Assembly: GCA_003139735.1 (NCBI GenBank)
Contig: PLGA01000579.1
Location: 78,125-97,228, forward strand
From: Bryobacterales bacterium
GTDB lineage: Bacteria > Acidobacteriota > Terriglobia > Bryobacterales > Bryobacteraceae
Reading direction: 5' to 3'
Length of the DNA: 19,104 nt
Part shown: positions 22-2,735 of the stretch, one piece after another
Position numbering within the stretch: the first letter of the stretch is position 1
How the letters are laid out: every line of letters starts with the position of its first letter
Translations under genes and position numbers: made by a program
Notes under the pieces: model-generated
What the model saw: the letters and a program-made list of their open reading frames with translations, nothing else
Database searches by the model: none
What the model was told of the DNA's origin: nothing

Positions 22-1035
22 TTACACCCACCGGATCAGCGTGGCCCCCCATGAATAGCCAACCCCAAAACCGACCGCCATAGCCAAACGGCCTGGCTGC
101 ATGCGCCCTTCCTCCACTGCCTGCTTCAGCGCAATAGGTATCGTGCAGGAAACCGTGTTTCCACAATGGCGCATGCCCACGAAGAATCTCTCGGGGGGAA
201 TCTTCAGCTTCTTCCTGAGATGCTCCAGCATGTACTGGTTCGCCTGGTGGAACACGTACAGATCGATGTCGTCAAGCCTCTTGCCCGCGGCTGCCAGCAG
301 TTCCCGCACTACCTTGGGGACCGCCTGGAGGGTAAAGGCGAAAATCTCCGCCCCGTTCATGTAAAGGTTCGCCTCGCTGCGCAGGTTCCCATCCGAATCC
401 ATGGTTGCCCCTTCGCCTGTCGCCACCCGCCGCCGCATGCCGCCGGTGGGTACGATCAGGTTCCTTGCGCCGGCGCCGTCCGTTCCGTACACGAAGGGAC
501 CAATGAACTCGTCGTTCCCGGCTACGCCGCGCACCAGGGTCGCAGCCCCGGCATCCCCAAACAGCGTGCGGACGCTCTTGTCTTTCGGGTGAATGAACTT
601 GCTATAAGTCTCGGCGGTCACCAGAAGCACATTCGTCGCCTGGCGGGTTTCAACCAGGGCCTTAGCAAGGCCTAAACCGTACACGTACCCCGAACACCCC
701 AGGTTGAAGTCTAATGCCCCAGCGGACGTCGATATGCCCAGGCGCTCCTGCATCATGCAGGCGGTTGTCGGCAGGAAATGGTCCGGGCTCTGCGTGCAGA
801 ACAGAATATAGTCGATATCCGCGGGGCGGCAGGCCCCACTGTCGAACAGTTTCCTCGCGGCCGCGATTCCCAGGTCGGACGAGCACTCGTCTTCGGCGGC
901 AATCCAGCGTTCGGCGATGCCGGTCTTCTCTTCGATCTTCTCTACGCTCCACTCGGGAAACTCAGCCGCCAGTTGCGCATTGGTCAGGCAACGCTCCGGG
1001 AAGTGGTATTCGATGGCTGCGACAGTTGCTTTCAT
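22..1035 (-). CDS. Beta-ketoacyl-ACP synthase III (FabH-like)
   Basis: 337 residues of thiolase fold, with the full KAS III triad: Cys114 in DFNLGCSGYVYGL, His263 in YVFHQAN, and Asn293 in CGNTVSCTIP. VKAxxKTGI-like IEEKTGIAERWIA and GDGAGA-like FGDAGAATLV are also in place, and it ends with GFGVGYSWGATLIRW. KAS III condenses acetyl-CoA (or another acyl-CoA) with malonyl-ACP to give a 3-oxoacyl-ACP. The intact triad and the location beside an ACP, a FabG-like SDR and a sugar acyltransferase argue for a dedicated role, not housekeeping fatty acid synthesis; fabD, fabF and plsX are absent. The ATG at 1035 lies 22 nt past the PglD-like stop, without a clear ribosome binding site. Confidence 0.93.
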   Translation of the reverse strand: MKATVAAIEYHFPERCLTNAQLAAEFPEWSVEKIEEKTGIAERWIAAEDECSSDLGIAAARKLFDSGACRPADIDYILFCTQSPDHFLPTTACMMQERLGISTSAGALDFNLGCSGYVYGLGLAKALVETRQATNVLLVTAETYSKFIHPKDKSVRTLFGDAGAATLVRGVAGNDEFIGPFVYGTDGAGARNLIVPTGGMRRRVATGEGATMDSDGNLRSEANLYMNGAEIFAFTLQAVPKVVRELLAAAGKRLDDIDLYVFHQANQYMLEHLRKKLKIPPERFFVGMRHCGNTVSCTIPIALKQAVEEGRMQPGRLAMAVGFGVGYSWGATLIRWV

Positions 1036-1057
1036 AAACAGGCGTTTCGCGGGAAAA

Positions 1058-1705
1058 CTACTTCGCGGCTTTGGTGCAAATCAGTTTGGCGGGGACGCCG
1101 AACATGGTGCTTCCGGCAGATACATTCCGGGTCACGACGGCGCCCGCTCCAACCACCGCGCGGTCGCCAATTCTCAGGCCAGGCAGGACGCAAGCATGGC
1201 TGCCCGCGAAGACTCCCTCCCCCAGAGTCACGTTTCCCGTTATGTCGACGCCATCGCTCAAAGTGCACCAGTCGCCCAGCCGCGCATCGTGCCCTACTGT
1301 GGAAGCGATATTTACAGTGACGAATCTGCCCAGGGTCACATGCGTTGTCAGCACAGCTCTTGGGCACACGATACAGCCATCGCCGATGCGGCAATCCGCC
1401 CCCATAATGACGGAAGGATGAATCAGAGTCGCGAACCGCGCGCCGCGCGCCGCCAGTCCCGCGACAAGGCGCTGTTTGGTTGCCGGATCGCCGATCGCAC
1501 AAACGTACCGGTCCGTTTCAGCGGGCGCGAATTCCGCTGGGTTTCCCAGGATTTCGAGAGGTACGTCGAAGCCGTCGAGGGCCGCGGCATTGGCGTCCAG
1601 GAATCCGCCGATGCTCCATTCCGACTGCGTCGGCGCAACATCCCGCGCCCAACATAGGACCTCCCTGCCAAATCCGCCCGCGCCAACAATTAAAAGACGC
1701 TTCAC
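1058..1705 (-). CDS. PglD/NeuD-like sugar N-acyltransferase (left-handed beta-helix)
   Basis: 215 residues from a GTG. The N-terminal Rossmann-like part has LLIVGAGGFGREVL (4-17), the UDP-sugar binding GxGGxG(R/K)E of PglD, NeuD and PerB. From about residue 95 come hexapeptide repeats (IHPSVIMGADCRIGDG, then several I/V-G-x-x rungs). His139 in ASTVGHDARLG aligns with the catalytic His of PglD, and the protein closes with GVPAKLI, the usual end of the family. These enzymes transfer acetyl, or another acyl, from a thioester to the amine of a UDP-4-amino-dideoxy sugar, or to a hydroxyl. Here it is flanked by a FabG-like and a FabH-like gene, so the donor may be an acyl-ACP and not acetyl-CoA. 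The amine would come from the DegT aminotransferase at 17689-18813. Confidence 0.9.
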   Translation of the reverse strand: MKRLLIVGAGGFGREVLCWARDVAPTQSEWSIGGFLDANAAALDGFDVPLEILGNPAEFAPAETDRYVCAIGDPATKQRLVAGLAARGARFATLIHPSVIMGADCRIGDGCIVCPRAVLTTHVTLGRFVTVNIASTVGHDARLGDWCTLSDGVDITGNVTLGEGVFAGSHACVLPGLRIGDRAVVGAGAVVTRNVSAGSTMFGVPAKLICTKAAK

Positions 1706-1709
1706 AGGT

Positions 1710-1715
1710 CCCCTT
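1710..1715 (-). promoter_or_regulatory. Ribosome binding site for the GTG start of the PglD-like gene
   Basis: AAGGGG on the minus strand lies four bases before the GTG at 1705 and overlaps the SDR stop codon region. It supports the GTG start. Confidence 0.6.
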
Positions 1716-2473
1716 TAATGCGCGGTGTAACCGCCGTCCACCACCAGCGTCGTGCCGGTAATCCAACGGGCCGTCTCGGCGAGCAGGAAGGCGATGGCGC
1801 AGGCAACGTCGTGAGCGCTGCCAAACCCCAGCAAATGCATCGACTTCAGGGCCGCGCCCTGGTCGGGCGTCAGCAGGCTTAACTGGCCCTGTCCCATTTC
1901 GGTTGTCACGAGTCCGGGGGCCACGCAGTTGACGCGGATGCGTTCTCCTGCCAGCTCGACGGCCAGCGCTTTTGTGAGCGCAATAATCGCGCCTTTACTT
2001 GCCGCGTACGCGCTGAGGCCTGCCTGGCCTGTCAATCCGGTCACGGATGAGAGGAATACGATGCTGCCACTCGATGCACGGACGTTCTTTTGACAAAAAC
2101 CTCTGGCCAGGCCGATTGCCGCCTTCACGTTAATCCCCATAACATCTTCGACCGTTTGTGAAGTCGACACGCGAAGCGGACACAGTTTGATGATGCCCGC
2201 GCTGTGAACCAGTCCGTGCAATGGTCCGGACGACGCGGTAACGCTCTTAAGCCAGCGCGGGATCTCATCGGCCGAAGACAGATCGAATAGCTCGGCTCTA
2301 TGGCCCTCGCCATCGAGGGATCGCAGCGTCTCCGCAAGGCGCTCCTCGTTGCGCCCAACCAGAACAACGCGGGCGCCCAACTGGCTGATCAGGCGGGCCG
2401 TCTCACGTCCAATCCCGGAAGACGCGCCAGTGACCAAAACGGTCCGGCCCGCCAAATCCATTGGATTGATCAT
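1715..2473 (-). CDS. Short-chain dehydrogenase/reductase, FabG-like 3-ketoacyl-ACP reductase
   Basis: 252 residues, classical SDR. TVLVTGASSGIGRE (11-24) is the dinucleotide-binding TGxxxGxG, VLVGRNEERL has an Arg after strand 2 that favours NADPH, and HSAGI (90-94) replaces the usual NNAG. Asn115, Ser143, Tyr156 and Lys160 form the catalytic set (SSVTG and YAASK). PGLVTTEM and TTLVVDGGY close the fold as in FabG. It is placed between a carrier protein and a FabH-like synthase, so reduction of a 3-oxoacyl-ACP to a 3-hydroxyacyl-ACP is the natural reading. A sugar-ketone reductase is the main alternative. The ATG at 2473 has no clear ribosome binding site; an ATG at 2461 is also possible. Confidence 0.9.
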   Translation of the reverse strand: MINPMDLAGRTVLVTGASSGIGRETARLISQLGARVVLVGRNEERLAETLRSLDGEGHRAELFDLSSADEIPRWLKSVTASSGPLHGLVHSAGIIKLCPLRVSTSQTVEDVMGINVKAAIGLARGFCQKNVRASSGSIVFLSSVTGLTGQAGLSAYAASKGAIIALTKALAVELAGERIRVNCVAPGLVTTEMGQGQLSLLTPDQGAALKSMHLLGFGSAHDVACAIAFLLAETARWITGTTLVVDGGYTAH

Positions 2474-2504
2474 GACTGTGCCCGCAACTTCTCAATCGGC
2501 GCCA

Positions 2505-2735
2505 TTATGCGATTTTGTCGTCGAGTAGCGCCACCAGGTCCGCAACCGTCGTGCACGCGGCGATCCGCCTGGGCTGCAAGGTCACGCCGAATCGCTCATC
2601 CATAAGCGCCATGAGACTGATAATGGCGAGCGAATTCCAGCCTTCCAGGCTCTCCAGAGTCTCGGACCCTTTCACGGTGCCCGGCTCAAGTTCCAGGAGT
2701 TCATCGAGCGACAACAAAAACTCGGTTTTTTGCAA
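2505..2735 (-). CDS. Acyl carrier protein (phosphopantetheine-binding)
   Basis: A 76-residue, acidic, single-domain carrier. The attachment site is Ser35 in LEGWNSLAIISLMALMDERF; the residue before Ser is Asn instead of the usual Asp. FGVTLQPRRIAACTTVADLVALL is helix 3 to helix 4 of the ACP fold. It starts at a TTG with a strong AAGGAG. It would carry an acyl thioester on a 4'-phosphopantetheine arm; housekeeping ACPs normally sit next to fabF and fabD, which are absent. It lies between the PIG-L deacetylase and a FabG-like reductase, 31 nt from the latter, so it probably belongs to the local acyl set. A holo-ACP synthase is not in the window. Confidence 0.92.
   Translation of the reverse strand: MQKTEFLLSLDELLELEPGTVKGSETLESLEGWNSLAIISLMALMDERFGVTLQPRRIAACTTVADLVALLDDKIA

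Follow-up and report, generated by a model that had tools for sequence, protein, structure and literature searches.

An acyl carrier protein cassette in a polysaccharide locus of a Bryobacterales bacterium, with a probable role in N-acylation of an amino sugar

The window analysed here, 19,104 nucleotides from a Bryobacterales bacterium, carries at one end four adjacent minus-strand genes (22..2735) for a β-ketoacyl-acyl carrier protein synthase III (KAS III), an N-acyltransferase of the PglD/NeuD/VioB type with a left-handed β-helix (LbH), a FabG-like short-chain dehydrogenase/reductase (SDR) and a stand-alone acyl carrier protein (ACP). The operon to which they belong probably makes an N-acylated 4-amino-sugar nucleotide through an acyl-ACP supply of its own and loads the sugar on a lipid carrier, to start or enter the repeat of a surface polysaccharide; the locus can be read as a pathway of the bacillosamine type equipped with that supply. 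The product is most likely a short hydroxy-acid on an amino sugar. A preliminary description of this DNA had proposed an N-(3-hydroxyacyl) amino sugar, which is the best available interpretation and in essence already published. Bacterial surface sugars owe part of their antigenic variety to unusual N-acyl groups, for which few assigned genes exist.

The four genes were found as open reading frames (ORFs) on the strand and at the coordinates that had been reported, and Pfam matches above cut-off place each in its named family. The KAS III gene (22..1035), of the type termed KS3b below, matches ACP_syn_III and ACP_syn_III_C and retains Cys114, His263 and Asn293; it exceeds the cut-off of the PRK09352 subfamily (278.4 against 249) and falls below that of the housekeeping fabH model TIGR00747 (251.2 against 292.1 bits). 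The LbH gene (1058..1705, GTG start) matches Hexapep and PglD_N, has His139 in place and exceeds the NCBIfam cut-off for the NeuD/PglB/VioB family TIGR03570 (206.2 against 160.8 bits). The SDR gene (1715..2473) matches adh_short_C2 with its Ser, Tyr156 and Lys160 intact, and the ACP gene (2505..2735) matches PP-binding (PF00550, 34.8 bits against a cut-off of 20.8) with Ser35 in a W-N-S-L motif. AAGGAG lies 5′ of the TTG start of the ACP, bearing out the strong ribosome binding site described before. The intact catalytic residues claimed for the three enzymes are present and widely kept in alignments: the Cys and His of the KAS III in 114 of 114 other aligned rows and the Asn in all except L059, which has a gap there; Tyr and Lys of the SDR each in 72 of 74 rows; and His139 of the LbH, which aligns with the His of VioB and WeeI, in 53 of 57. 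The ACP serine is kept in all 72 rows and the tryptophan before it in 71 of them, while the residue at the N position is D in 52 rows, N in 11 and S in 9. The solved structure nearest to the LbH, both by sequence and by fold, is VioB (7txp), and the fold matches of its AlphaFold model confirm an enzyme of the PglD/VioB kind; the model is a single chain (pLDDT 76.5, poor near the C-terminus) that does not discriminate ACP from CoA. All four genes lie in a minus-strand row from 6239 to 22 with intergenic gaps of 3–33 bp throughout, in the order, 5′ to 3′, glycosyltransferase, PglC-like transferase, tandem GNAT, PIG-L, ACP, SDR, LbH and KAS III.

An alignment of 17 KAS III proteins was scanned against one genome per species, and the best 80 of 544 confirmed loci, ranked by similarity to the window KAS III rather than drawn at random, formed the survey; dereplication at <80% KAS III identity left 56 loci, 37 of which have 4.5 kb on both sides. 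Family matches came from profiles built in this analysis, with thresholds of our own choosing. Near the KAS III, that is, within 4.5 kb on the same strand, an ACP was found in 69, 50 and 34 of the 80, 56 and 37 loci, respectively, an SDR in 56, 40 and 29, an LbH in 46, 26 and 17, a second KAS III in 30, 16 and 11, a DegT aminotransferase in 22, 16 and 15, PHPT in 12, 12 and 7, PglF in 4, 4 and 3, PIG-L in 2, 1 and 1, and GNAT in 3, 2 and 1. Since many loci end at contig edges, absences are upper bounds. As a control on the 56 loci, matches were counted in three classes, nearby on the same strand, nearby on the opposite strand and more than 4.5 kb away on both strands (447 kb near against 429 kb far), giving 51, 1 and 1 for ACP, 45, 4 and 5 for SDR, 28, 6 and 2 for LbH, 16, 4 and 5 for DegT and 13, 1 and 1 for PHPT; with 51 ACP matches near on the same strand against one on the other strand and one far, the co-occurrence is not chance. 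The four genes do therefore recur together with DegT aminotransferases and form a recurring unit, as had been expected, though not one strictly of four genes, as roughly half of the loci lack an LbH match nearby.

The order seen here, ACP-SDR-LbH-KS3b, occurs in 7 of the 80 loci when unlabelled genes are ignored, two Pseudomonas loci among them; one of the seven, L093, has two KS3b-type genes in a row. In the closest relative, a further Bryobacterales locus (L026), the KAS III is 86%, the LbH 75%, the SDR 69% and the ACP 68% identical. The loci span 15 named phyla; 3 of the 81 rows are unplaced. Within its own phylum the KAS III gene is rare, with matches at E<=1e-60 in 11 of 396 genomes and identity above 55% in two, the window's own included. 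On a tree of the dereplicated KAS III sequences the phylum label needs 21 changes, where the minimum for 14 phyla is 13 (no shuffle was run), which is no more than a hint of horizontal spread.

Two published systems resemble this arrangement most closely. The viosamine island of Pseudomonas syringae (vioS, vioB, vioR, acp; vioA, vioM, vioT) has the same four protein types, with one KAS III (vioS), an LbH (vioB), an SDR (vioR) and an ACP, and its sugar carries 3-hydroxybutyryl (PMC3927599). Mutants of vioR, like those of vioA, vioB and vioT, have rhamnose glycans that lack the modified viosamine; vioS and acp were assigned by homology (PMC3927599). A Pseudomonas caricapapayae locus (L104) has the same order ACP-SDR-LbH-KAS III, at 55% identity for the KAS III, 53% for the LbH and 47% for the SDR. 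In contrast to the P. syringae island, which provides dTDP-viosamine for flagellin, a UDP-GlcNAc-derived sugar is indicated here, in a polysaccharide locus with PIG-L and GNAT genes added. The O-antigen locus of Flavobacterium psychrophilum likewise combines acyl genes with a bacillosamine-type pathway, having an ACP (wfpD), two different KAS (wfpC and wfpE), a reductase (wfpF) and a PglD homologue (wfpG) beside pglE and pglF; D-Qui2NAc4N there bears 3,5-dihydroxyhexanoyl, and its transfer from the ACP by WfpG was predicted in 2019 (PMC6519341). The novelty attached to an ACP-to-PglD-homologue route had therefore been overrated. The F. psychrophilum locus differs in having two KAS and a C6 dihydroxy acyl group where only one KAS III is present here; wfpC and wfpE are known to us by description, the sequences compared being those of other Flavobacterium loci. 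The present locus suggests that a single widespread cassette includes the acyl genes of both the viosamine island and F. psychrophilum. Hydroxybutyryl forms of D-Qui2NAc4N, the same parent sugar, are listed for marine bacteria (PMC3210612), and fatty-acid-type genes are reported in flagellin glycosylation islands of Aeromonas and Enterobacteriaceae (PMC7874193, PMC4875605). Homologues of ACP, KAS III, reductase and acetyltransferase are also tabulated for orfA-orfE of the Pseudomonas aeruginosa PAK flagellin island, likened here by description, where the whole glycan structure was described as not elucidated (PMC3927599).

The sugar itself is indicated by the flanking genes. An ATG and the next bases at 1..8 on the minus strand are the putative start of a DegT aminotransferase gene that continues beyond the window (L008), where a run of N is followed by the DegT gene and then by a PglF-type dehydratase (PF02719, 379 bits). 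The four enzyme kinds of the Campylobacter jejuni N,N′-diacetylbacillosamine pathway, PglF-PglE-PglD-PglC, flank the acyl genes here, and the LbH model matches PglD structures; all four families are present in the locus, but the dehydratase and the aminotransferase are cut by runs of N. To our knowledge no ACP or KAS III lies beside the C. jejuni pglD gene. PglD is an acetyltransferase (PMC6519341), and the PDB titles of its structures name acetyl-CoA complexes. Over 180 residues the downstream DegT piece shares 87% identity with a DegT of L026, which scores best against the curated LegC family (357 bits, cut-off 420) and at 136 bits against WecE, both below cut-off; with the DegT that occupies the VioA position in L104 the piece shares 32%. 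It is these PglF- and LegC-like genes that indicate a sugar derived from UDP-GlcNAc.

From these families and the P. syringae precedent we infer a series of reactions, the C4 length of the acyl group and acyl-ACP as its donor. The PglF-type dehydratase and the DegT aminotransferase would convert UDP-GlcNAc to UDP-4-amino-4,6-dideoxy-GlcNAc. General FabD- and AcpS-type enzymes of the cell would load the dedicated ACP; the KAS III would condense the malonyl that it carries with acetyl-CoA to acetoacetyl-ACP, and this the SDR would reduce to 3-hydroxybutyryl-ACP. The PglD-like LbH would then move the acyl group, presumably from the ACP, to the 4-amino group of the sugar, and the small phosphoglycosyl transferase (4329..5015, minus strand; Bac_transf, PF02397, 176.7 bits), which is PglC-like, would pass the sugar phosphate to undecaprenyl phosphate. 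This last enzyme probably brings the acylated sugar onto the lipid carrier; its family lies near the KAS III in 12 of the 56 dereplicated loci.

Several observations weigh against this scheme. An LbH is found near the KAS III in only 26 of the 56 dereplicated loci, and in 17 of the 37 that have long flanks; since it is missing near about half of them the KAS III-ACP pair also serves other acceptors. The SDR, which matches 237 families, lies above none of the 25 curated cut-offs among the matches listed. Both downstream genes, DegT and PglF-type, are broken by the runs of N in the assembly; the aminotransferase, judged by proxy through the gene of L026, falls short of the LegC cut-off, and the aminotransferases of other cassette loci are just 33–38% identical to the downstream DegT. 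The operon also holds a GNAT and a deacetylase, and the GNAT could be the real user of the acyl-ACP.

As to other acceptors, five loci recorded as planctomycetes or Kuenenia (L042, L047, L048, L051 and L076) have a KAS III, an ACP and a DegT aminotransferase with no LbH or SDR match nearby, and the copy checked, L042, also encodes a 589-residue protein with an epimerase domain; perhaps these represent another acceptor for the same acyl supply. On plasmid p3 of Azospirillum brasilense (L107:5299-9757) a more distant KAS III (44% identity) and an SDR lie among pseudaminic acid genes, beside a protein annotated as SRPBCC, which suggests that similar acyl genes serve nonulosonic acids.

The length of the acyl group may be legible from a second KAS III, termed KS3a, that occurs in 30 of the 80 loci, lies between the ACP and the SDR in 29 of these 30 (unlabelled genes ignored) and is on the opposite strand in two more, L028 and L059. 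KS3a is 33–42% identical to KS3b and has its own Cys-His-Asn; the two are split on one branch with 98% support in the Shimodaira-Hasegawa-like approximate likelihood ratio test (SH-aLRT; 19 and 57 rows). The nearest solved structure to the window KS3b is 3gwa (387 bits, against 213 for 4efi), while that nearest to a KS3a is 4efi, by a smaller margin (284 bits, against 262 for 3gwa). The order ACP-KS3a-SDR-LbH-KS3b occurs in 7 of the 80 loci and ACP-KS3a-SDR-KS3b-LbH in 17, of which 15 are Flavobacterium. The closest relative, L026, has a KS3a; in the window just 31 bp separate the ACP from the SDR. A two-KAS module of the F. psychrophilum type was not found in this genome (assembly 82% complete), where the KAS III found are the window copy, one of 35% identity and two pieces of 28–31%. 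Among the 396 genomes of the phylum, 7 have a KS3a match at E<=1e-65, the window's own KAS III included, at a best identity of 43%; in G122 and G180 a single gene answers to both types, with 42% identity to KS3a and 36% to KS3b. On the KS3b tree, in which many forks are weak and some loci truncated, presence of KS3a needs 12 changes against a mean of 13.4 and a minimum of 8 in 200 shuffles, so it is not tied to KS3b ancestry.

We propose, tentatively and at rather less than even odds, that the cassette is a modular mini-polyketide line in which the number of KAS III sets the acyl length: KS3b alone would give C4 3-hydroxybutyryl, an exchangeable KS3a would add one unit to give C6 3,5-dihydroxyhexanoyl, and Rieske or GNAT/PIG-L proteins would tailor or place the chain further. 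The two structures in the literature are consistent with C4 from one KAS III and C6 from two, and 3-hydroxybutyryl is therefore predicted here; the rule has these two anchors, and two points do not prove it. Further gene orders exist, so that not every locus is described by its number of KAS III. In the passages of the literature retrieved, none was found that ties this number to acyl length, although the full texts may hold such a statement. Were the rule true, gene content would reveal surface-sugar acyl chemistry in the 15 named phyla sampled, and a large number of O-antigen and flagellin loci could be interpreted from sequence. This idea and the pair of PIG-L and GNAT merit further work; they go beyond the preliminary description, as do the adjacent aminotransferase and dehydratase and the second KAS III in relatives.

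Searches of plasmids with KAS III and KS3a queries gave mostly Azospirillum at 39–44% identity, and Burkholderia glumae at 54% (KAS III) and 45% (KS3a). In B. glumae vioA, KS3b, an ACP, a KS3a-like gene, an SDR, an acetyltransferase and a Rieske protein lie beside flagellin, the Rieske protein being annotated on pBGF3. The flagellin sugar of Burkholderia cenocepacia is given as Qui4N(3-OHBut) in a review table (PMC12355684). A glycan unit of 291 Da tabulated for Burkholderia flagellin equals, by hand arithmetic, Qui4N plus trihydroxyhexanoyl, whereas this sum does not account for the 342 Da unit that the table gives for another species (PMC3958885); two KAS III and an oxygenase could make the trihydroxyhexanoyl of the 291 Da unit. 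In one Flavobacterium locus (L056:8163-9263) the acyl genes enclose a gene for a Rieske ring-hydroxylating oxygenase, which may add a hydroxyl group to the acyl chain; an ORF that clusters with it is present in 16 more loci, including Pseudomonas helleri (L087), the Pfam check having been made in L056 alone.

KAS III enzymes vary in starter use. The acyl chain might accordingly be longer or differently started (a branched or odd starter, or help from general fatty-acid enzymes) rather than 3-hydroxybutyryl, an explanation that overlaps the preferred one in all except chain identity. Tailoring genes in related loci, a Rieske oxygenase in L056 and an AMP-binding enzyme in L029, would agree with this, but Pfam recognised no such gene between 6239 and 22 and the one-KAS P. 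syringae precedent yields C4 (PMC3927599), and we consider a different chain rather unlikely.

The acyl-ACP might instead feed the GNAT, with PIG-L deacetylating the sugar, the GNAT re-acylating it with the hydroxyacyl group and the LbH acting as an ordinary acetyl-CoA PglD. The tandem-GNAT protein (3447..4319, minus strand; PF13527, 28.5 bits against a cut-off of 25), a possible second N-acyltransferase, and the PIG-L family de-N-acetylase (2769..3437, minus strand; PF02585, 95.4 bits) immediately precede the ACP, at spacings of 9 and 33 bp. Modelled with AlphaFold (pLDDT 93.2), the GNAT matches mainly Eis-type tandem GNATs, plus an N-myristoyltransferase, at a query TM-score of 0.43–0.63 among the 50 matches listed, and such matches of a predicted fold fix the superfamily, not the donor. 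Loci without an LbH match include L049, with ACP-SDR-KAS III-GNAT-PIG-L (one gene between the last two), and L032, with SDR-ACP-KAS III and a GNAT-profile match, while in Paenibacillus L102 a different GNAT takes the frequent LbH position between SDR and KAS III. Six of 70 GNAT relatives, the window's own among the 70, share a longest-contig size with KAS III relatives (29320, 17849 and 57670) or LbH relatives (14044, 3977 and 20698), which suggests that they share contigs. On the other hand, GNAT is near the KAS III in just 3 of the 80 loci and PIG-L in 2, against 46 for the LbH; the GNAT of L029 has no tblastn match to the window's at 1e-4, and that of L032 has no Pfam match. The gene lists printed for P. 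syringae and F. psychrophilum name no GNAT (PMC3927599, PMC6519341). Deacetylation and re-acylation is a live rival or addition, but as a replacement for acylation by the LbH it appears unlikely.

It is less likely still that both acyltransferases draw on one acyl-ACP pool, the LbH acylating the 4-amino group and the GNAT the amino group freed by PIG-L, to give a doubly hydroxyacylated sugar, which would partly coincide with the pathway we favour. LbH and GNAT do share one operon with the ACP, and L029 is similarly arranged, with a PIG-L at the same place that is 47% identical; its GNAT, however, is not clearly related to the window's, such pairing is rare in the survey, and the donor of either enzyme is putative.

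That the four genes are relocated housekeeping fatty-acid synthesis was rejected on account of the failure of the KAS III against the fabH model and of the separate KAS III, malonyl-transacylase-type and ACPS matches elsewhere. The next KAS III in the genome is 34–35% identical to the window's and lies elsewhere, suggesting that the window copy is dedicated, and the two pieces of lower identity are on another contig. Housekeeping fab partners had been described as absent, which holds for the window; the rest of the genome has, besides KAS III, a malonyl-transacylase-type match, ACPS-family matches and six other ACP-like matches, so loading of the ACP can rely on general machinery.

The first gene of the operon row encodes a glycosyltransferase (5019-6239, minus strand). 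Elsewhere in the window lie genes for glycosyltransferases and methyltransferases, a second DegT and three long ORFs that lack a Pfam match, content that fits a polysaccharide locus. The second DegT (17689-18813), at the other end of the locus, is 39% identical over 174 residues to the downstream DegT piece, and no dehydratase partner was identified for it. Outside the window (L008:9389-15008, contig 194) an NTP_transf_5 nucleotidyltransferase, a radical SAM/SPASM protein and a PqqD-like protein lie in a row, adjoined by ORFs without a Pfam match, and a PEP-CTERM motif protein is encoded at 14256-15008; this looks like a peptide-modification or PEP-CTERM-linked cluster adjoining the polysaccharide locus.

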